Shown here: positions 30,460 through 49,881 of the stretch, one piece after another
Layout of the letters: every line of letters begins with the position of its first letter
Numbering within the stretch: the stretch's first letter is position 1
Notes under the pieces: generated by a model
Database searches by the model: none
What the model was told of the DNA's origin: nothing
What the model saw: only the letters and a program-made list of their open reading frames with translations
Made by a program: the position numbers and the translations under genes
NCBI GenBank assembly: GCA_900638155.1
Contig: LR134495.1
Location: 1,364,001-1,428,000, forward strand
Direction of reading: 5' to 3'
Source: Mannheimia haemolytica
GTDB lineage: Bacteria > Pseudomonadota > Gammaproteobacteria > Enterobacterales > Pasteurellaceae
DNA length: 64,000 bases

Positions 30460-31485
30460 TTAACCACCGATACTCGCCAAATTATTCCTAACCCCACTAT
30501 CCCCGATATGCAAATAGTGGTGTTCTCGTTTGCCTTGTAAGGCAGATTTCAGGCGAGTTTCAAGCTGTAATTGTTGCTCATCACTTGCCAGTAAATCACG
30601 AATATCAATCCCTTCTTCACCAAATAAGCAAAGATGCAGTTTACCAAGTGCGGAAACACGCAAGCGGTTACAAGAGGCACAGAAATTTTTCTCGTAAGGC
30701 ATAATTAAGCCGATTTCGCCTTTAAAATCAGGGTGAGAAAGCACTTTTGCCGGGCCGTCAGACATCGCTTTGGGTTGTAGTTGCCAGCCCTCTTGTAATA
30801 AGCGGGTCATCACCGATTGACCAGAAAGATGTTGAGCTTGGAAGAAAGTACCCATTTCGCCGGTTTCCATCAGCTCAATAAAACGCATTTGAATCGGTTT
30901 GTCTTTGATCCAAGTGAGGAATTTATCCAATTCAGGGGCGGTATATTGCTTCATCAGCACCGCATTAACTTTAATTTTTCGGTAGCCAATTTCAAAGGCT
31001 TTATCGATACCCTTTAAAATAGATTGCAACTTGTTCTCGCCGGTAATCAGTTGGAATTGGCGTGGGTCAAGGCTATCAACACTCACATTAATATCGGTAA
31101 TACCGGCTTGCTGCCACAGTTCAACATCACGTTCTAGGCGATAGCCGTTGGTGGTTAAGGCAACTTTACGGATACCGGGTGTTTGTGAAATAGTGTGAGC
31201 GATTTCGAGGAAATCTTTGCGTAAAGTAGGCTCACCACCGGTGATACGGATTTTTTCCGTCCCTAAATTGGCAAAGGCTTTAGCCACTCGCTGGATTTCA
31301 TCAACGCTAAGAAAAGTTTGCTTATGTGAAGGCGGTTTATAGCCATCAGGCAAGCAATAATTACAACGGAAGTTACAAACATCAGTAATGGACAGTCGCA
31401 AATAAGTATATTGACGCTGAAAGCGATCAACTAAACCGGAAACGACATCATCACCCACGTTTTTAATTGGGATAATAGACTGCAT
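30460..31485 (-). CDS. moaA: GTP 3',8-cyclase
   Basis: 341 residues. Radical-SAM cluster CNFRCNYC (Cys37, 41, 44), GGEPTLRKDF, and a second C-terminal cluster (FCASCNRLRVSALGKLHLCLF). The C-terminus ends in the Gly-Gly needed for activity. It converts GTP to 3',8-cyclo-GTP, first step of molybdopterin synthesis. Its 5' leader folds as a Moco-type riboswitch whose 3' strand contains the ribosome site AAAGGTG. An FNR-like site lies farther upstream. Confidence 0.97.
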   Translation of the reverse strand: MQSIIPIKNVGDDVVSGLVDRFQRQYTYLRLSITDVCNFRCNYCLPDGYKPPSHKQTFLSVDEIQRVAKAFANLGTEKIRITGGEPTLRKDFLEIAHTISQTPGIRKVALTTNGYRLERDVELWQQAGITDINVSVDSLDPRQFQLITGENKLQSILKGIDKAFEIGYRKIKVNAVLMKQYTAPELDKFLTWIKDKPIQMRFIELMETGEMGTFFQAQHLSGQSVMTRLLQEGWQLQPKAMSDGPAKVLSHPDFKGEIGLIMPYEKNFCASCNRLRVSALGKLHLCLFGEEGIDIRDLLASDEQQLQLETRLKSALQGKREHHYLHIGDSGVRNNLASIGG

Positions 31486-31487
31486 TT

Positions 31488-31620
31488 GACACCTTTCTAA
31501 ACACGAGAGGACAACCCATTTCTAAGTTATCCTTTGAACAGCGTTATGCTGTTACTGGCATAAATTCCATATCAAAAATTTGTCTTTAATTTTTAGAGTT
31601 AGGAAATAATGCTCGGAGTC
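31488..31620 (-). promoter_or_regulatory. Moco-type riboswitch in the moaA leader
   Basis: On the minus strand: closing stem GACTCC / GGTGTC; arm GCAT..TTCC / GGAA..ATGC enclosing the hairpin AAAAATT / AATTTTT followed by GATATGG; hairpin AACAGC-ATAAC-GCTGTT; hairpin GGATAAC-TTAGAAATGG-GTTGTCC; then CTCG and TTTAGAAAGGTGTC. The last strand includes the moaA ribosome site. The same fold, with compensating changes, precedes the reductase gene at 34816. Moco RNAs are known upstream of moaA in gammaproteobacteria; the class assignment here is by fold and position. Confidence 0.7.
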
Positions 31621-31724
31621 TTCACTAAATTGGTTTTTATTTTATGGTGAGAAACCTAATTAGGCAAGAGGTATAATTTAAATTGTATGTTCTACCTATA
31701 AAAATCGGGCAACCGTTGCTTAGT

Positions 31725-31738: not shown

Positions 31739-31793
31739 ATTAATGCCGAGATAATTTTGCTATGTTAGCTAACGTTTTTAGTTCGAGGTGGGA

Positions 31794-33545
31794 ATGGATA
31801 AACGTAGCCGATGGTCTTGTTTAGTGAATGAACAAGGTGAAATATCAGAATGGGAAGACAAAGCAGGGGCAGACTATTTTGCTGAATTACCGCAAATTTG
31901 CCACTATGCACAGGCATTGCTCTATTCAGATAAAAATAGCTTGCAGTTTTACTATAGTTCAAACCATCAATGGCTTAAGATCAGCCTAGAACGACACCAA
32001 TCGTTTGTATTGACTCAAGCAGAGCATACCGATTTGCCTTATGGGCTAAGCAAAAGGGAGATTGAACTTCTCACTCTAATCAGCAGTGGTTTAAGCAATG
32101 AGGAAATCGCCAATGAGCTTTGTATCAGCAAACGGACTGTTGATAAACATATCGAAAATATTTTTGCGAAAACACACACCGAAAGCCGAACCTTATTAGC
32201 TGTTTTTACCATTACCGAACATTTAATCTGTTTACCCACACCGGGAAAACTAAATCAATCCATTCTTGCCAGCTTTAACATTGAACAACTGGCATTGCAA
32301 ATTATTGCGAAAAAACAACCGCTTGTAACGGCTTCAGCTCGGCACGAACCACCGATTTTTACCATAAGCCACCATCATAGTCGTCCGATTATTATTGGCG
32401 TGCCTTATGTTGAACAGGGTATTGGGCAAATCGATACCCGAGAGCTACTTAACGGCACTCAACTTGCGGTTGAAACCATTAACCAACAAGGTGGGATTCA
32501 CGGTAGAGAAGTGCAGATTGCAACGGCAGGGTTTTGTGTTAAAGATAAAGCAAGTATTCTTCAGGCATACCATCATTTATTTGATCAAGAAGTTGATGCG
32601 ATTTCAACCGCTTATGCCTGCTACTTGCCGGAAGTACACGAATTAATTGCAACTAAAGGCATTCCTTATTTGCATATTGCAACCCATAGTGGCTCAAACA
32701 AACTTGCCCAAAATTTACCGAATCAACGAATTGAAAATATGTTTCAGGTTTGTGCCAGTGATGTAACCTATGGCTTAGGCATATCCCATTTTCTGCAATA
32801 TTACCGTTACCATTATGCCCCTTGGCTTCAGAATAAAACGGTGATGGTGGTAACGGTGAGTTGGCAAAAAGTTGATATCGGTATTGAAAGCTTAACCCTA
32901 AGTTTGCGGGAGCAAGGCTGGAATGTGGATTATCTGGAACTCACCCAAGAACAAGATAATTATGCCAAATTAATGACACAGGTGCATAATATCACGCCTT
33001 CCATTATTGTATTTGCCTCTTATTTTGCAGAAGATATTGTACAGTTTTATCAAACGTTCATTCGCAACCCAACAAATGCCATTATTTACAGTATTTATGC
33101 ACCTTCGGCGTTTTTGCCACACGAGAAACTTTGCGAAGGCGTTCTCTGGAGTACCAATAGTGGGTTAAGCGAAAATTATTTAGGCAGACAGTTTAGCCAA
33201 CATTACGAACGGTTTTTCGGCAAATCTCCCACTTATTCCCAAGCCAGTATTGCTTATGACCAAGCGAATATTCTGGCAAATGCATGGAAACAGAGTGTTT
33301 CACCACGGCATTTTAAAGCTGTCTCCAATGCGATCCGCTTACATCCACATTATGGGGTAAACGGCACTTACTATTTTAATACCGATAGCCAAATTGGGCT
33401 AACTTACGCAGAAACCCACGATTTGTCTATCAGCTTACCGCAGTTGGTTTACCAAATCCAACAAGGGCAGAGCCGTGTGATTGCACCGGAGTTGTTTGCC
33501 AATGCACAATTTATTTTACCGCCGTGGTTCTCTGAAAAAGCCTAA
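31794..33545 (+). CDS. LuxR-type HTH regulator fused to a periplasmic-binding-protein fold
   Basis: 583 residues from the ATG at 31794 (GAGG 5 nt before; a GTG at 31788 is possible). Residues ~1-78 form a small unrecognised domain. Residues ~80-140 are a LuxR/GerE helix-turn-helix (LSKREIELLTLISSGLSNEEIANELCISKRTVDKHI). After a linker, from ~200 on, comes a type I periplasmic-binding domain like UrtA/AmiC (IGVPYVEQGIGQIDTRELLNGT, INQQGGIHGREVQI). There is no signal peptide or membrane helix, so the sensor domain is predicted cytoplasmic. It precedes the cytochrome-reductase operon by 142 bp and may regulate it in response to a small nitrogenous or sulfoxide ligand; that is inference. Confidence 0.8.
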   Translation: MDKRSRWSCLVNEQGEISEWEDKAGADYFAELPQICHYAQALLYSDKNSLQFYYSSNHQWLKISLERHQSFVLTQAEHTDLPYGLSKREIELLTLISSGLSNEEIANELCISKRTVDKHIENIFAKTHTESRTLLAVFTITEHLICLPTPGKLNQSILASFNIEQLALQIIAKKQPLVTASARHEPPIFTISHHHSRPIIIGVPYVEQGIGQIDTRELLNGTQLAVETINQQGGIHGREVQIATAGFCVKDKASILQAYHHLFDQEVDAISTAYACYLPEVHELIATKGIPYLHIATHSGSNKLAQNLPNQRIENMFQVCASDVTYGLGISHFLQYYRYHYAPWLQNKTVMVVTVSWQKVDIGIESLTLSLREQGWNVDYLELTQEQDNYAKLMTQVHNITPSIIVFASYFAEDIVQFYQTFIRNPTNAIIYSIYAPSAFLPHEKLCEGVLWSTNSGLSENYLGRQFSQHYERFFGKSPTYSQASIAYDQANILANAWKQSVSPRHFKAVSNAIRLHPHYGVNGTYYFNTDSQIGLTYAETHDLSISLPQLVYQIQQGQSRVIAPELFANAQFILPPWFSEKA

Positions 33546-33686: not shown

Positions 33687-34802
33687 ATGGCTAAGATGAA
33701 AAAAATCGCTGTATTTGTCGGCATTATGGCATTAGGTGCTGTGGTGTTGGGCGGTACACAATATGCAATGAAAGCCACCAGCTCAACAGAATTTTGTGTG
33801 AGCTGCCATTCTATGACTCACCCACAGGCAGAGTGGGAAGGCAGTGTCCATTTTTCCAACCGTAAGGGGATTCGGGCTGAGTGTTCGGATTGCCACCTAC
33901 CACAAGACGGTTTGCATTATGTCAAAGCTAAAATCATCGCATTAAAAGATGTTTGGCACACCGTTGTAACCAATAAATTACCTGATCAAGAAGCTTATGA
34001 AGCTCATCGTCTAGAAATGGCACAACGTGTTTGGGCAGAAATGAAAGAAAACGATTCTATGACCTGTAAAAGCTGTCATAGTTTTGATGCGATGGTGCTT
34101 TCTGAACAAAAAGAAGCGGCACAGAAAATGCACAAACTAGCCCAAGAAACTAACCAAACCTGTATTGATTGCCATAAAGGTATTGCCCATTTTATGCCTG
34201 ATGTGCCGGTAGATAGTGCCGCAGCAATGGGCGAATTAGCTAAACACGGTGCGGAATTTAGCACAAACGATAAAACCCTTTATACGCTCGCAATAACGCC
34301 GGTGCAGCTCGCTCAAGGTGGAGAAATTCGCTTGTTACCTTATGCAGAATTACATCAATGGACAGCAGAAGGCGAGCAGGTTAAAGCAACGGTGAATGGC
34401 TGGCAACAAGAAGGTGCGGAATCTGTGGTGTATATGGATTTAGGCAAGCGTATTATGGTTGCTCTTCTGCCTGATGACGCCCAAAGCAAAGTGAATGTCA
34501 CAAAAACGGTTTTTGATAATGTCACCAACTCAAATTGGAAAGAAATCAATTTTGAAATTACTGCTCCTAAAAATGCAGTCACCGCCAATATTACTGCACT
34601 AAATCATTTTGGCGATAACTTAAACCAAACTCACTGTAGCGGTTGCCACGCACCGATTGGGGCAGAGCATTACACCGCAAATCAATGGATTGGGGTGGTA
34701 AATTCAATGAAAGACAGAACATCTATGTCGGCTGATGATGTGCGTGCGGTGACTATTTATCTGCAACGTAATGCAAAAGATGTAGCAGGCAGTTCCCATT
34801 AA
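33687..34802 (+). CDS. torY: Pentaheme c-type cytochrome, TorY/TorC family
   Basis: 371 residues with an uncleaved N-terminal membrane anchor (VFVGIMALGAVVLGG) and five CxxCH haem sites: CVSCH, CSDCH, CKSCH, CIDCH and, in a separate C-terminal domain, CSGCH. This is the NapC/NirT-type tetrahaem domain plus a monohaem domain of TorC/TorY. It passes electrons from menaquinol to a periplasmic molybdenum reductase. Its ATG is 142 bp after the LuxR-type gene. The reductase gene follows, with a riboswitch between them. Confidence 0.92.
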   Translation: MAKMKKIAVFVGIMALGAVVLGGTQYAMKATSSTEFCVSCHSMTHPQAEWEGSVHFSNRKGIRAECSDCHLPQDGLHYVKAKIIALKDVWHTVVTNKLPDQEAYEAHRLEMAQRVWAEMKENDSMTCKSCHSFDAMVLSEQKEAAQKMHKLAQETNQTCIDCHKGIAHFMPDVPVDSAAAMGELAKHGAEFSTNDKTLYTLAITPVQLAQGGEIRLLPYAELHQWTAEGEQVKATVNGWQQEGAESVVYMDLGKRIMVALLPDDAQSKVNVTKTVFDNVTNSNWKEINFEITAPKNAVTANITALNHFGDNLNQTHCSGCHAPIGAEHYTANQWIGVVNSMKDRTSMSADDVRAVTIYLQRNAKDVAGSSH

Positions 34803-34815
34803 TTGTAACTTAGAG

Positions 34816-34986
34816 GATACCGAGCTTGTGGGCCTAAGTGTCTGCTGATAGCAGAGATATGGTAGCAAGCCGTAAAGCACCTATTACAAGCGGTCATTTT
34901 TTCTAATATTTTGCAAAAATTACCGCCGGTGCTTTACCAATGGATACACGAGAAATGGTTTATCCACTCGACTTTAGAAAGGTGTC
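34816..34986 (+). promoter_or_regulatory. Intercistronic Moco-type riboswitch before torZ
   Basis: Closing stem GATACC / GGTGTC; CGAG / CTCG; arm GCTTG / CAAGC enclosing hairpin TCTGCT-GAT-AGCAGA then GATATGG; long hairpin GTAAAGCACC (34872-34881) / GGTGCTTTAC (34928-34937); hairpin GGATA...GAGAAATGG...TATCC; then CTCG and TTTAGAAAGGTGTC. The moaA leader shares all these parts in order, with different but complementary stem bases. The long hairpin loop contains an uptake signal (34886-34895). It begins 13 nt after the torY stop. Confidence 0.7.
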
Positions 34987-35018
34987 TATTTTTAACTTAA
35001 CTTCAAACGAGGTTTATT

Positions 35019-37505
35019 ATGAAAAAACAAGACAGTATTGACGTAAGTCGTCGCGGTTTTCTAAAAAATTCATCATTAAGCTTAGCTGCCGGTGCAGGTT
35101 TAGCTAGTGGTACTACCGGTGTAGTAGGGGCATTAGCTTCCACCAGTGCCAAAGCTGCCGAGATGAAAACAGTAGTAACTGCTGCCCACTGGGGGCCTTT
35201 GGGCGTAGTGGTAGAAAACGGCAAAGTGGTGAAATCTGATTCTGCGTTTGAGATTTCTGTACCAAATGAATTGCAACACGTGGTAGCAGACCAAGTACAC
35301 GGTGAAACACGAGTAAAATACCCAATGGTGCGTAAAGGTTACTTAGAGGGGAATAAAGACACCACATTGCGTGGACGTGATGAATGGGTGCGAGTTTCGT
35401 GGGACAAAGCATTTGAATTAGTAGCGAATGAAATGAAACGTGTTCGTGAGGCTCACGGGGCGAATGCTATTTTTGGTGGTTCTTACGGTTGGTATAGCTC
35501 TGGGGCGTTACACGCTTCCCGTACACTGTTACAACGCTATTTAAATGTCACCGGCGGATTTGTTGGTGTAAAAGGCGACTATTCTACCGGTGCTGCTCAA
35601 GTGATTATGCCACACGTCTTAGGTACAATCGAAGTGTACGAACAGCAGACCAGTTGGGAAGTGATTTTAGAAAGTTCAGATATTGTGGTGCTTTGGTCAG
35701 CTAACCCGTTAAATACGCTACGCATTGCCTGGACTTCAACCGATCAACAAGGTATCGAATACTTCAAAAAACTCAAAGAGAGTGGGAAACGCATTATCTG
35801 TATTGATCCGGTAAAAAGCGAATCTTGTGAATTTTTAGGTGCGGAATGGGTACCGGTAAATACCGGCACTGATGTTGCGTTAATGCTTGGTATGGCTCAT
35901 ACCTTAGTCGCTGAAGGCAAACACGATCAAGCATTCCTTAAAAAATACACCACCGGTTTTGAGAAGTTTGAAGAATATCTGCTCGGTAAAACCGACAATC
36001 AACCGAAAGATGCAAAATGGGCAAGCCAAATTTGTGGTGTGCCGGAAGAAACCATTAAAAAATTAGCGACCGATTTTCAATCTAAACGCACAATGTTAAT
36101 GGCAGGTTGGGGGATTCAACGCCAACGACACGGTGAACAAGGGCATTGGATGTTAGTCACCTTAGCTGCAATGTTAGGTCAAATCGGCTTACCGGGTGGT
36201 GGCTTTGGTTTAAGTTACCACTACTCAAACGGCGGTGTGCCGAGTGCAACAGGGGGCATTTTAGGCTCTATCACGGCAAATCCGGCAGTAGAAGCAGGAG
36301 CGAAAACTTGGTTGGATGAAACCTCAAAATCTTCATTCCCAGTGGCTCGTATTTCTGATGCACTCCTCAACCCGGGCAAAACCATTGATTATAATGGCAC
36401 ACAAATTACTTATCCGGATATCAAGATTGTCTATTGGGCAGGTGGTAATCCGTTTACTCACCACCAAGATACCAACACTTTAGTGAAAGCGTGGCAAAAA
36501 CCGGATACTATTATCGTCAATGAATGCCATTGGACACCAACGGCTCGTATGTCTGACATTGTGCTGCCGGCAACTACCAGCTATGAGCGTAATGACTTAA
36601 CCATGTCGGGCGATTATTCAATGATGAATATTTTCCCGATGAAACAGGTGGTCGAGCCGCAATTTGAGGCAAAAAACGACTACGATATTTTTGCCGAACT
36701 TGCCAAACGTGCAGGCAAAGAAGCGGAATTTACCGAAGGCAAATCTGAAATGGATTGGCTACAAAGTTTCTATCAAACTGCATTTGAGGCAGCACGCAAA
36801 AATCGTGTGATTATGCCGAAATTCGAGAAATTCTGGCAAGAGAATAAACCACTTTCTTTTAAAGCATCAGATAAAGCGAAAAAATGGGTTCGCTATGAAG
36901 AATTCCGTAATGATCCGCTCCTAAATCCATTAGGCACACCGTCCGGCAAAATTGAGATTTTCTCTGAAGTGATTGCCAAAATGAATTATGATGACTGTAA
37001 AGGCCACCCAACTTGGATGGAACACGAAGAATACTCGGGTAAAACCACCGCAGAAGAACCGTTGGCATTGGTGACTCCACATTCTAAATGGCGTTTACAT
37101 AGCCAGTTAGCTTACTCATCATTACGTAAACAATATGCGGTTAATGACCGTGAGCCGGTGTTAATCCATACTGAAGATGCTGCTGCTCGTGGCATTACAA
37201 GCGGTGATATTGTGCGTATTTTTAACAAACGTGGTCAAGTATTAGCCGGTGCAGTGGTGACAGATGGCATTATCAAAGGTACATTAGCCTTGCACGAAGG
37301 AGCTTGGTACGATCCGCTCGATCTCGGCACCAGCGAGCAACCGCTATGTAAAAACGGCAACCCTAACGTGCTAACCCGTGATGAAGGCACATCAAAATTA
37401 GCACAGGGTAACTCACCAAATACCGCTACGGTACAGGTTGAAAAATTCACCGGACAAGCACCAGAAGTAACAGTATTTAAAGAGCCTAAATACACACAAG
37501 GCTAA
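35019..37505 (+). CDS. torZ: Periplasmic molybdenum S-/N-oxide reductase, TorZ/MtsZ type
   Basis: 828 residues. A Tat signal (SRRGFLK, cleavage near AKA-AE) exports the folded enzyme. The DMSO-reductase-family domains follow, with the serine molybdenum ligand in KGDYSTGA and cofactor motifs GWGIQRQRHGEQGHW, GGNPFTHHQDTN, LPATTSYERND. The protein reduces trimethylamine N-oxide, biotin sulfoxide or methionine sulfoxide; the Haemophilus influenzae relative was renamed MtsZ for the last activity. Electrons come from the adjacent pentaheme cytochrome. GAGG is 7 nt before the ATG. A strong terminator follows. A signal-less paralogue lies at 47524. Confidence 0.93.
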   Translation: MKKQDSIDVSRRGFLKNSSLSLAAGAGLASGTTGVVGALASTSAKAAEMKTVVTAAHWGPLGVVVENGKVVKSDSAFEISVPNELQHVVADQVHGETRVKYPMVRKGYLEGNKDTTLRGRDEWVRVSWDKAFELVANEMKRVREAHGANAIFGGSYGWYSSGALHASRTLLQRYLNVTGGFVGVKGDYSTGAAQVIMPHVLGTIEVYEQQTSWEVILESSDIVVLWSANPLNTLRIAWTSTDQQGIEYFKKLKESGKRIICIDPVKSESCEFLGAEWVPVNTGTDVALMLGMAHTLVAEGKHDQAFLKKYTTGFEKFEEYLLGKTDNQPKDAKWASQICGVPEETIKKLATDFQSKRTMLMAGWGIQRQRHGEQGHWMLVTLAAMLGQIGLPGGGFGLSYHYSNGGVPSATGGILGSITANPAVEAGAKTWLDETSKSSFPVARISDALLNPGKTIDYNGTQITYPDIKIVYWAGGNPFTHHQDTNTLVKAWQKPDTIIVNECHWTPTARMSDIVLPATTSYERNDLTMSGDYSMMNIFPMKQVVEPQFEAKNDYDIFAELAKRAGKEAEFTEGKSEMDWLQSFYQTAFEAARKNRVIMPKFEKFWQENKPLSFKASDKAKKWVRYEEFRNDPLLNPLGTPSGKIEIFSEVIAKMNYDDCKGHPTWMEHEEYSGKTTAEEPLALVTPHSKWRLHSQLAYSSLRKQYAVNDREPVLIHTEDAAARGITSGDIVRIFNKRGQVLAGAVVTDGIIKGTLALHEGAWYDPLDLGTSEQPLCKNGNPNVLTRDEGTSKLAQGNSPNTATVQVEKFTGQAPEVTVFKEPKYTQG

Positions 37506-37645: not shown

Positions 37646-39294
37646 ATGACAACCCTTACTTGGTACGGCAAAGAAGAAGCCGTCAAAAAAGCAAAACAAA
37701 CCCCATATTACCTATTGCGTGAGTTGCCGGATTTCTCGCATAATATTGCCCGACAGCCGACAGCCGACAGCCGACAGCCGACAGCCGACAGCCGACAGCC
37801 GACAGCTCAGCTTCTGCTGAAACCTTATCTAAAATCAAGCAAAATTTAATTATTCAGGGTGATAATTTATCAGCCTTAAAATCTCTTTTGCCCTTTTATG
37901 CGGGGCAAGTCAAATGTATTTTTATTGATCCTCCCTATAACACAAAATCGGCCTTTACCCACTACGATGATAATTTAGAGCATTCCGTTTGGCTTTCAAT
38001 GATGTATCCACGCCTTGAAATTCTGCGAGAGTTACTTGCCGAAGATGGTTCAATTTGGATCACTCTTGATGATAACGAAAGTCACTATTTGAAAATTATG
38101 CTTGATGAAATTTTTGGGCGGAAGAATTTTGTAGCGAATGTGGTGTGGCAGAAGAAATCGTCTCCATCAAATGATGCAAGATGGATATCTGATAATCACG
38201 ACCATATTTTATGCTTCGCTAAGAATAAAGAAAAATGGAGACCAATCAAACTGGAAAGAACCGAGGAGCAGAATTCCATTTATAATAAATCAGATGAATT
38301 TGACGGCGTAGATAGTGATGGAAATATTTATGGTCGTGGAACGTGGTTTGCAGGAGATATGACTGTTAAAACGGTTAATGAAAATTCTTTATATGAGATT
38401 ACAACACCATCCGGTAAGAAAGTTAAACCAGCTGCTGGCAGAGCTTGGGTTTATTCGGAAGAAAAATTTTTAGAATTATTGGCTGATCATAGAATTACTT
38501 TTGGTAAAAGTGGCAGCAATAAACCTTGTATCAAACGATTTTTATGTGAAGTAGAGGAATCAAAAATTGTTCCAAAATCCGTTTGGTTATATGAAGAAGT
38601 AGGTGAAAACCGCAATGCTAGGCAAGAAGTGAAGAAATTTAATCTTGAAGATCCATTTTCTACTCCAAAACCTGAAACGCTGTTGCAAAGAATCTTACAT
38701 CTAGCTACTATCGAAAACGATCTCGTCCTCGATAGCTTTCTTGGCTCAGGTACAACTGCAGCAGTTGCTCATAAAATGAACCGTCGTTATATCGGTATTG
38801 AGATTGGCGAACATGCTAAAACCCATGTTGTCCCAAGGTTGAAAAAAGTAATTGAAGGTGAGCAAGGCGGTATTTCAAAAGCAGTAAATTGGCAAGGTGG
38901 CGGATCGTTTCGCTTTTGTGAGTTAGGCGAGGAAGTATTTGACGCATTCGGTTCACTTAATCCGAACATTCGTTTTGACGATTTAGCCGCCCATATTTGG
39001 TATTTAGAAAATCATTTCCCTTTGCAAAAAAACAGCGAAAAATCACCGCTTGTCGGCACTTTCAACGGCAAAGCCTACTATTTGTTATATAACGGAATTT
39101 TAGGTGATAAACGTCCGCAGAGTGGTAATGTTCTGACACGAAAATTAATGACGGAGTTACCATACTTTGCTGAATTTATTCAACAGGGAGTAGAGATTGT
39201 GATATATGGCGAAGCATGTCGTTTAGGAGAGGCACAGTTAGCTGAAAAGAAAATTACATTTAAACAGATTCCGTATGATGTAACAGCGCGTTAA
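37646..39294 (+). pseudogene. mod: Type III DNA methyltransferase Mod, phase-variable, out of frame here
   Basis: The ATG at 37646 (AGGTG 6 nt upstream) starts MTTLTWYGKEEAVKKAKQTPYYLL, a normal Mod N-terminus. Eight CGACAGC units follow (37751-37806), after which this frame stops at 37849. The rest of Mod is one frame over: NLIIQGDNLSALKSLL, IFIDPPYNT (catalytic DPPY), DSFLGSGTTAAVAHKMNRRYIGIE (SAM motif), so it is a beta-class N6-adenine methylase. Six or nine repeats would give a single frame (nine: 551 residues); eight is OFF. The shifted frame has a TAA at 37741 and no start between there and the repeat. Methylates the recognition site and confers specificity on Res. Confidence 0.88.
37751..37806 (+). 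repeat. Eight tandem CGACAGC heptanucleotides in mod
   Basis: 8 x 7 bp, perfect. Any frame encodes a rotating RQPTADS heptapeptide without stops, so only the downstream frame changes with copy number. Classic contingency-locus arrangement. Confidence 0.97.
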
Positions 39295-47523: not shown

Positions 47524-49881
47524 ATGAACACAGCATTAGAAAAAGGGAAGTTTGTCTTTTTGGATAAACTGGAAAATACCATTACCACTGCCGCCCACTG
47601 GGGTGCATTAAATGTAACAGTGGAAAACGGAAAAGTCGTGAAATCAGAGGGCAGCTTAGCAAAAAATCACCAAAACGAATTACAAGATGTGGTGGCGGAT
47701 CAGCTCTATAGCCCGGTTCGGGTGAAATATCCGATGGTACGGAAAGGCTATTTGGAAGGGAATAAAGACACCACTTTACGAGGGAGAGATGAGTGGGTAA
47801 GAGTCTCTTGGGACAAAGCCTTTGAGCTAGTTTCCAGCGAAATCCAACGAGTAAGAGAACAATACGGGAGTGAATCCATTTTCGGTGGTTCTTACGGTTG
47901 GTATAGCTGTGGTTCACTGCACGCCTCTCGCACGCTTTTACAACGTTATTTAAACCTAACAGGTGGTTTTACCAACACCAAAGGCGACTATTCCACCGGT
48001 GCGGTGCAAGTGATTATGCCTTATGTATTAGGCAATATTGAGGTGTATGCTCAACAAACCAGTTGGCATACGATTGTAGAAAGCACAGAATTATTGGTGA
48101 TTTGGTCTTCTAACCCGTTAAATACATTGCGGATTGCGTGGACCTCTGCCGAACCGGAGGGGATTGATTATCTGGCTAAAATCAAAGCCAGCGGTAAACG
48201 GATTATTTGTATCGACCCGGTGAAAAGCGAGACCTGTCAATTTTTAGAGGCAGAATGGTTGCCGATTAATACCGGCACGGATGTCGCCCTGATTTTAGGG
48301 ATCGCCCACACCCTTATTACTGAAAACAAGCATGATCACGACTTTTTAGCCAACTATACCGTCGGTTTCGAGCAATTTGCTGATTATGTGTTAGGAAAAA
48401 CCGATAATCAACCGAAAACGGCTGAATGGGCGAGCCAAATTTGTGGCATTCCGGAGGAGGTGATTAAAACCTTAGCCAATGATTTTGTTACTCACCGCAC
48501 AATGTTGATGTCCGGCTGGGGATTTCAACGCCTGCAACACGGGGAGCAAAGCCACTGGGCGTTAGTGACTCTTGCCGCTATGCTCGGGCAAATTGGCTTG
48601 CCAGGTGGCGGTTTCGGCTTAAATTATCGTTATTCTACCAATGGGCTAAATGCCAGTTCAGGTGTTCGTTTAGGAGCAATAAATGCAGGTAAACCTAACC
48701 CCGATATGCCGTTTTTCCCAGTGGCTCGAATTGCTGATGCCTTGCTTAAACCAAATCAGCCTTACGATTACAACGGACAGACCTTAGTTTACCCTGATGT
48801 GAAATTAGTCTATTGGGCAGGCGGCAATCCGTTTGCCCATCACCCGGATACCAACTATTTAGTCAAAGCGTGGCAGCAGCCGGAAACAGTCATCGTCAAT
48901 GAATGCTATTGGACACCAACCGCTCGAATGGCGGATATTGTATTACCGGCGACCACCAGCTACGAGCGAAACGATCTCACCGTTGCCGGTGATTATGTGG
49001 CAAAACATATTATCCCGATGAAACAGGTGGTCGAACCGCAATTTGAAGCGAAAAACGACTACGATATTTTTGCCGAATTAGCGAAACGAGCCGGTAAAGA
49101 ACAAGCATTTACCGAAGGCAAAAGCGAAATGGAATGGCTTAAAGAATTTTACCAAGTTGCCTTTGAAGCGGGGGAAAAAGCTAATACGCCATTGCCGGAT
49201 TTCGAGGTATTTTGGGCAGAAAATAAAGTGTTAAGTTTTGAGGCAGAACATCAAAATAATACTTTCGTTCGCTATCAAGATTATCGTGCTGATCCGATTA
49301 AACACAAATTGGCAACGCCATCAGGCAAAATTGAGATTTTCTCTGAAACCGTTGCCAAGATGAATTATGAAGATTGTAAAGGACACCCGACTTGGTTTGA
49401 ACATTACGAATATTCAGGCAAAACCAACGAAGCCGAGCCATTGGCATTAGTTACACCGCATATTAAATACCGTTTACACAGTCAGCTTGCGTACTCCTCA
49501 TTACGTCAATATTACGAGGTAAACGGCAGAGAACCCATGCTAATTCACACAAAAGACGCCGCTGACAGAGGCATTACAAGCGGTGATATTGTGCGAATTT
49601 TTAACAAGCGAGGGCAGGTGTTGGCAGGAGCAGTAGTGACTGATGGCATCATTCAAGGCACAGTAGCGTTATACGAAGGCGGTTGGTATGACCCGCAAGA
49701 TTTAGGCAAAACCGACACTCCACTATGCAAAAATGGCAACCCGAATGTGCTAACCCGTAATGAGGGTTCATCAAAACTCGGGCAGGGGAATGCACCTAAC
49801 ACTACCACGATTCAAGTGGAAAAATTCGTGGGAGATGCACCTGAAGTGACGGTGTTTAAAGCCCCTGTTTTTAGTGAATAG
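47524..49881 (+). CDS. bisC: Cytoplasmic molybdenum sulfoxide reductase, BisC type
   Basis: 785 residues, closely similar to the TorZ-type protein at 35019 from TTAAHWG onward, but lacking the Tat signal; the first ~20 residues (MNTALEKGKFVFLDKLENTI) are unrelated to an export signal. Mo ligand serine in KGDYSTGAVQ; LPATTSYERND kept. This matches cytoplasmic BisC, which reduces biotin sulfoxide and free methionine S-sulfoxide. No cytochrome gene adjoins and no Moco-type leader precedes it. Ends before a terminator. Confidence 0.88.
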   Translation: MNTALEKGKFVFLDKLENTITTAAHWGALNVTVENGKVVKSEGSLAKNHQNELQDVVADQLYSPVRVKYPMVRKGYLEGNKDTTLRGRDEWVRVSWDKAFELVSSEIQRVREQYGSESIFGGSYGWYSCGSLHASRTLLQRYLNLTGGFTNTKGDYSTGAVQVIMPYVLGNIEVYAQQTSWHTIVESTELLVIWSSNPLNTLRIAWTSAEPEGIDYLAKIKASGKRIICIDPVKSETCQFLEAEWLPINTGTDVALILGIAHTLITENKHDHDFLANYTVGFEQFADYVLGKTDNQPKTAEWASQICGIPEEVIKTLANDFVTHRTMLMSGWGFQRLQHGEQSHWALVTLAAMLGQIGLPGGGFGLNYRYSTNGLNASSGVRLGAINAGKPNPDMPFFPVARIADALLKPNQPYDYNGQTLVYPDVKLVYWAGGNPFAHHPDTNYLVKAWQQPETVIVNECYWTPTARMADIVLPATTSYERNDLTVAGDYVAKHIIPMKQVVEPQFEAKNDYDIFAELAKRAGKEQAFTEGKSEMEWLKEFYQVAFEAGEKANTPLPDFEVFWAENKVLSFEAEHQNNTFVRYQDYRADPIKHKLATPSGKIEIFSETVAKMNYEDCKGHPTWFEHYEYSGKTNEAEPLALVTPHIKYRLHSQLAYSSLRQYYEVNGREPMLIHTKDAADRGITSGDIVRIFNKRGQVLAGAVVTDGIIQGTVALYEGGWYDPQDLGKTDTPLCKNGNPNVLTRNEGSSKLGQGNAPNTTTIQVEKFVGDAPEVTVFKAPVFSE

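Follow-up and report, generated by a model that had tools for sequence, protein, structure and literature searches.

The 64,000-nucleotide stretch of Mannheimia haemolytica DNA analyzed here (the window) carries, between torY and torZ, a structured element that by its sequence and predicted fold is a genuine Moco-class RNA. We tentatively propose that it is an ON-type riboswitch that controls translation of only torZ within the torYZ mRNA, with the enzyme made when the cofactor is present; we hold with much greater assurance that it acts at translation, in whichever direction. The features of the locus are as follows.

31474..31630, - strand: moaA leader element matching RF01055, used for comparison (81.3 bits, full-length)
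33687..34802, + strand: torY, pentahaem c-type cytochrome (electron donor), the upstream gene of the operon (open reading frame; TorC/NapC-family models)
34816..34821, + strand: P1 5' strand, GATACC (sequence, RF01055 alignment, fold)
34824..34870, + strand: P2 arm, including CCTAAG (34833-34838) and TATGG (34858-34862), which we take to be the letters of the tetraloop receptor, and a tip hairpin (sequence, RF01055 alignment, fold)
34824-34828 and 34866-34870, + strand: P2 stem, GCTTG/CAAGC
34841-34846 and 34850-34855, + strand: tip hairpin, TCTGCT/AGCAGA
34872..34937, + strand: P3 arm, a 10-bp stem GTAAAGCACC/GGTGCTTTAC with a long loop (sequence, fold)
34886..34895, + strand: DNA-uptake signal ACAAGCGGTC in the P3 loop (sequence; genome count)
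34942..34965, + strand: P4 hairpin with GAAA tetraloop at 34952-34955 (sequence, RF01055 alignment; covariation)
34977..34986, + strand: conserved GAAAGG and the P1 3' strand GGTGTC (34981-34986) (sequence, RF01055 alignment)
34987..35018, + strand: predicted expression platform, with U-rich TATTTTTAACTTAACTTC and the hairpin AACTTC (34999-35004)/GAGGTT (35009-35014) (prediction; spacing)
35019..37505, + strand: torZ, S-/N-oxide (TMAO-type) molybdoenzyme (open reading frame; TIGR00509, 1246 bits, over cut-off)

Both leaders were searched with the covariance model for Moco RNA (RF01055). The element between torY and torZ matched at 34806-35000 (+ strand) with 56.9 bits (E 5.6e-11; gathering score 36) over model positions 1-135 of 135, and the moaA leader matched as listed; the whole genome contains two matches, these two. 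Aligned to the model, the window sequence forms P1-P5 around the conserved junction, with a GNRA tetraloop capping P4 and a receptor in the bulge of P2, where Moco RNA is described as having it (PMC2408646). The 10-bp P3 stem marks the Moco rather than the tungsten-cofactor type, and the element lies upstream of a molybdoenzyme gene, as a family that adjoins genes for Moco synthesis, transport, or use should. Its predicted fold is unusually stable (z-score of -4.09; 0 of 200 shuffles equally stable). TorY scored 345 bits against TIGR02162, under the cut-off of that model, and TorZ differs at 3 of 828 residues from TorZ of M. haemolytica DSM 10531, which places the genome close to Mannheimia haemolytica. 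The preliminary description, made from the sequence, had recognized a closed multi-helix Moco-type RNA inside the torYZ operon. The full-length match bears this out, with P1, P2, the tip hairpin, and P4 lying where it had drawn them, and of the two things on which it had staked the assignment, a covariance-model match and covariation, the first was found at 56.9 bits and the second in P4. The position inside the operon was seen in the window and in 44 of 80 torZ leaders.

Covariation was assessed in 42 distinct torZ aptamers, 39 of which could be parsed, against 1,000 shuffles of the 3' strands that ignore relatedness. In P4, 91.8% of cells were paired, compared with 68.1% after shuffling (maximum, 76.4%), and two-sided changes occurred at 8 of 10 positions. 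P1 was uninformative (88.0% paired versus 88.3% shuffled), and many torZ leaders contain a U-U mismatch there. The P2 signal was weak both in the outer part (96.4% versus a shuffle maximum of 95.2%, with the better of two registers chosen for each sequence) and in the inner part (59.1% versus a maximum of 59.9%). Pair counts were taken from parsed stems because the MAFFT alignment (A1; 41 of the 44 torZ aptamers, with L065 excluded and L055 and L056 identical to L049) puts the 3' strand of P2 in the wrong place wherever a row has an additional base. Since CCGAGC and GAAAGG served as the anchors for finding relatives, their invariance is no evidence; CTAAGT, outside both anchors, is invariant in the 41 aligned aptamers and differs in L065, which lies outside the alignment.

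Across 140 genomes of the family Pasteurellaceae, an RF01055 match was present in 132, moaA (E of 1e-30 or better) in 137, and a TorZ relative (E of 1e-100 or better, distant paralogues counted) in 98. The aptamer anchors were found in 44 of 80 TorZ-group leaders and were missing in 36, and none of the 10 leaders read for a more distant paralogue had the full anchor set. TorZ fragments are present in G014, G119, and G071. A leader was called aptamer-less when the anchor words were missing over 1500-1600 nt (931 nt in L090), a call that agrees with the RF01055 matches per genome; weaker torZ matches were placed by their anchors. Forty-six genomes had two RF01055 matches: the 44 with a torZ aptamer, G008, and G138. 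In G008 (L203), the torZ match covers 136 residues before it stops and torY has a change of frame, yet the aptamer sequence is complete. G138 has a second moaA match (G138:C1:5558-6699), interrupted by five stop codons, next to its own RF01055 match. TorY is encoded upstream of the aptamer within the fetched stretch in 43 of the 44 leaders. In the 44th, that of G032, torY is farther away; because two genes (L204, 769-2845) intervene, the aptamer does not directly follow torY there. One of the two presumably resembles methionine synthase.

In 27 of the 36 aptamer-less leaders, no more than 50 nt lie between the end of the torY alignment and the torZ match. When the presence or absence of the aptamer is mapped on a torY tree (80 rows; one short row dropped), five changes are needed, and well-supported branches force three of them. 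G118 and G116, of the same genus, have similar flanks, and G116 differs by the near-exact absence of the aptamer, which in G118 is bordered by TATTTT on either side; the gap was read by eye, the aligner having misplaced it. We read the G116 state as probable loss of the aptamer, with a gain as the less likely alternative.

Several other genes deserve mention. A second S-/N-oxide reductase (47524-49881), 72% identical to TorZ over residues 50-826, has no Moco aptamer, and a third relative (43%) is encoded elsewhere in the genome. Between the divergent moaA and torY lies an open frame of 585 codons (31788-33545) showing weak helix-turn-helix matches; in G004, the gap between moaA and torZ is too small to hold it. 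Directly behind torZ, an open frame resembling adenine DNA methyltransferases (37888-39294) is preceded at a short distance by eight copies of CCGACAG (37750-37806) and may be a phase-variable methyltransferase gene.

The region between the aptamer and torZ differs from that of moaA leaders. The Shine-Dalgarno sequence of torZ in the window, GAGG (35009-35012), is predicted to be buried in the platform hairpin; it begins 23 nt past the end of P1 (34986), with 32 nt between P1 and the ATG, and thus lies outside P1 rather than within it as in a moaA-type platform. The preliminary description had given torZ a ribosome site of its own 25 bp beyond the element; the separate site stands, and the distance is corrected to 23 nt. 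Its further expectation, that the mechanism must differ from that of moaA, is upheld by the comparison across leaders: P1 and the ATG are at least 28 nt apart in all 43 torZ leaders measured (G001, in which torZ is broken, was omitted), whereas the ATG follows P1 by a few bases in all 25 distinct moaA leaders (taken from the window and the 30 loci with the best scores, one Mannheimia being included). None of the 43 torZ leaders is built in that way.

In 28 of the 43 torZ leaders, the P1-to-ATG distance is 28-37 nt. The remaining 15 have spacers of 58-231 nt, each with one predicted outer hairpin upstream of position -20. When this hairpin is looped out, the effective distance is 28-36 nt (mean, 33; standard deviation [SD], 1.8, versus 6-10 for shuffled spacers). 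The mean for shuffled spacers is about the same (31-36 nt), so that the spread alone differs; the effective length has a floor because the last 20 nt were kept out of folding, and several of the 15 are near copies. These leaders (L043, L044, L049-L053, L055-L058, L060, L063, L064, and L074) have large hairpins in the spacer, and the outer stem is TTTCACAA/TTGTGAA or a shortened version of it in 8 of 15 and a different paired stem in the other 7. In 36 of 43 torZ leaders, the word AACT lies no more than 16 nt from P1; it is also present between -34 and -10 in 6 of the 36 leaders that have no aptamer. With a predicted unpaired probability of 0.003, the torZ Shine-Dalgarno sequence is the most sequestered of the 30 window genes that could be scored out of 38 tried, with starts picked mechanically. 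A scan of the window found no intrinsic terminator between the aptamer and torZ, as a terminator-type platform would have, and promoter-like sites there are at chance level.

We used folding models to examine how closure of the aptamer affects the torZ start. Closure opens the Shine-Dalgarno sequence by more than 0.2 in 9 of 43 leaders and closes it in 1, and 33 shift by at most 0.2 either way; five of the nine (L096, L098, L100, L102, and L105) are close relatives. Predicted access in the window is 0.00 with the aptamer closed and 0.00 with it open; with the site buried in both states, no switch is visible by folding. An attempt to assign direction by folding (ViennaRNA; whole-leader and platform-only) yielded no common alternative pairing in the leaders inspected, and because the aptamer is frequently disrupted in the free-state folds, the ON/OFF tally is weak. 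For Mannheimia only, we considered that a GAGG 5' of the aptamer might compete for the anti-Shine-Dalgarno strand; the idea was dropped, as this GAGG is missing in G090 and in other genera.

The aptamer also contains a DNA-uptake signal, which the preliminary description had not mentioned. The genome has 492 copies of ACAAGCGGTC, compared with 7 of a reversed control word. Among the 42 distinct torZ aptamers, the uptake core (counted as AAGCGGT or AAGTGCGGT) is present in all 15 whose P3 region, measured to the start of P4, is 39-71 nt long and in none of the 27 in which it is 15-35 nt long. The exact nine-base ACAAGCGGT is missing from L035-L037 and L039, and the seven-base core is present there. 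Ten further torZ leaders carry the core in the spacer (that of G032 ends in C); no leader has it in both places, and 19 of 44 have it in neither. The core was absent from 25 moaA aptamers and, in the 60 nt searched, from 36 aptamer-less torZ leaders. We counted the uptake words in 18 genomes, and in all 12 core-bearing genomes the core is of the type that is the genome's own frequent word: the ACAAGCGGT type in G000, G090, G092, G004 (as the seven-base core alone), G055, and G032, and the AAGTGCGGT type in G010, G012, G089, G023, G083, and G027. The remaining six have leaders without the core. By these counts, uptake signals also have a place in a riboswitch arm, and their presence in P3 suggests that selection at the DNA level can be absorbed by the variable arm of a structured RNA.

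How might such an element act? In the mechanism we propose, one mRNA would carry both torY and torZ; Moco or bis-MGD would bind the aptamer and close P1; and closure would alter ribosome access to the torZ start, leaving torY unaffected. We place control at translation because the torY and torZ mRNAs move together in Actinobacillus pleuropneumoniae, including under iron shortage, when Moco is presumably short as well. Over a course of infection, log2 values were 12.66, 12.13, 11.23, and 10.44 for torY and 12.73, 12.13, 11.31, and 10.54 for torZ (PMC3328466); under iron restriction, the respective changes were -6.27 and -5.23 (PMC1832192), -2.30 and -1.61 (PMC3091793), and -5.37 and -5.82 (log2 mRNA; PMC12507848). 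That the element is a riboswitch is supported by the family match, the architecture, the place between torY and torZ, the kept P1-to-ATG distance, and also the aptamer kept in the decayed operon of G008. Two observations were set aside. Iron-starvation proteomics in A. pleuropneumoniae, in which TorZ declines less than TorY (log2 protein, -2.19 for TorZ and -3.77 for TorY; PMC12507848) at comparable declines in mRNA, had been considered as support for an OFF switch and was dropped because DmsA, with no known aptamer, behaves like TorZ (mRNA, -6.27; protein, -3.09; PMC12507848). The unchanged torZ mRNA of a Haemophilus influenzae mobA mutant (PMC4633490) was not used, the Haemophilus torZ leaders covered here, those of H. 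parainfluenzae and H. quentini, having no aptamer.

The closest competitor is an OFF switch at translation with the sign of moaA, in which Moco closes P1, the AACUUC/GAGGUU hairpin is stabilized, and abundant cofactor thereby lowers torZ translation. We regard this as possible, somewhat below our own proposal in likelihood. The tested member of the family, the E. coli moaA element, is OFF (direct binding of Moco could not be shown; PMC2408646), and the predicted Shine-Dalgarno hairpin of the window adjoins P1 and could stack on it, an arrangement that fits OFF at least as well as ON. Counting against our proposal as well, access to the Shine-Dalgarno sequence is lower with the aptamer (median, 0.33; n = 43) than without it (0.54; n = 36; P = 0.029, kinship ignored). 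On the other side, a site predicted to be buried in both states leaves the ligand nothing to close, the simple layout with the start right after P1 is kept in none of the 43 torZ leaders, and stopping an enzyme while its cofactor abounds would be physiologically odd. We slightly favor ON because the torZ layout departs from that of moaA throughout, because in the folding models nine leaders open on closure of the aptamer versus one that closes, and because E. coli torCAD expression needs bis-MGD (PMC10845959).

Control could instead be exerted on transcription, with the aptamer deciding, with or without Rho, whether RNA polymerase passes from torY to torZ. Rho-dependent 3' ends occur in the leader of E. 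coli moaA, which has been described as modulating termination, Rho-dependent and other; this counts against a translational reading. An A. pleuropneumoniae RNA that probably corresponds to our element is listed with a terminator and no promoter (PMC4809551), and torY and torZ no longer lie close together when the aptamer is present. We nevertheless judge this account unlikely, given that no intrinsic terminator was found between the aptamer and torZ in the window and that the two mRNAs covary in the four A. pleuropneumoniae data sets above, three of them on iron restriction. Less probable still is an element without Moco control, a relic or a spacer that mainly bears uptake signals or stabilizes the mRNA. 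The aptamer is missing from 36 of 80 torZ leaders, at least three gains or losses are forced on the torY tree, and in G008 the aptamer is kept beside a truncated torZ, as such an element might be; positions other than the anchors (CTAAGT, for example) do not vary among the 41 aligned aptamers, P4 covaries, and the distance to the ATG is kept, all of which argue against this account. Returning to the ON-type reading, its fullest form would be an operon-internal riboswitch by which cofactor sets the output of the molybdoenzyme while the donor is made regardless, with a fixed P1-to-ATG distance and with P3 or a spacer hairpin repeatedly serving as the seat of an uptake signal. As a whole, this combination is possible but doubtful; if true, one RNA hairpin has been shaped by both gene control and natural transformation.

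The occurrence of a Moco RNA at such a gene is already in print. In Haemophilus somnus, H. ducreyi, and A. pleuropneumoniae serovar 1, Regulski et al. (2008) found the motif ahead of a gene for a molybdopterin oxidoreductase (PMC2408646). Those motifs share with ours the RNA family, the bacterial family, a second copy beside the moaA one, and a molybdoenzyme gene downstream, and the two are probably orthologous; the association drawn in the preliminary description is not new. The passages concerned make no mention of torZ, of a location between torY and torZ, of the spacing, or of the uptake signals. RNA sequencing of A. pleuropneumoniae JL03 revealed two Moco RNAs approximately 1.3 kb apart, and one of them, APP-S19, is a 195-nt RNA between two same-strand genes, listed as a small RNA with its flanking genes given by locus tag (PMC4809551); we infer that it is probably the torY-torZ element. 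In the passages concerned, a survey of small RNAs in A. pleuropneumoniae names the moaA copy alone (PMC4986893), and a survey of M. haemolytica lists one Moco RNA (PMC3439734). Our literature search found no paper joining a Moco riboswitch and torZ and, in the passages retrieved, no description of an uptake signal sequence inside a riboswitch. The additions that we did not find in print, all read from sequence, are the shared geometry, the patchy presence, and the uptake signals within.

Uptake signals are known to form terminator hairpins in Pasteurellaceae (PMC1852404). Those terminators and the torZ leaders have in common that uptake signals sit in RNA hairpins between genes, but the torZ signal lies in a riboswitch arm or a spacer hairpin, and the word riboswitch does not occur in the main text of that paper. 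E. coli torCAD likewise ties expression of a TMAO reductase to cofactor supply; according to the authors, the torC leader is not conserved with the moaA leader, and the effect there is seen with a transcriptional fusion (PMC10845959). Expression of the TMAO reductase of E. coli depends on bis-MGD, and here a recognized cofactor RNA stands on the same kind of enzyme. With the E. coli moaA RNA, the torZ element shares the P1-P5 fold, the GNRA tetraloop and its receptor, and the conserved junction, but the moaA ribosome site lies in P1, whereas P1 of the torZ leaders ends an effective 28-37 nt before the ATG and the window site has a hairpin of its own (PMC2408646). The Moco RNA that has been tested restrains cofactor synthesis by feedback; the torZ copy, placed on an enzyme that uses the cofactor and with the start away from P1 in all 43 leaders measured, provides a natural case in which to ask whether the same aptamer can be wired the other way round.
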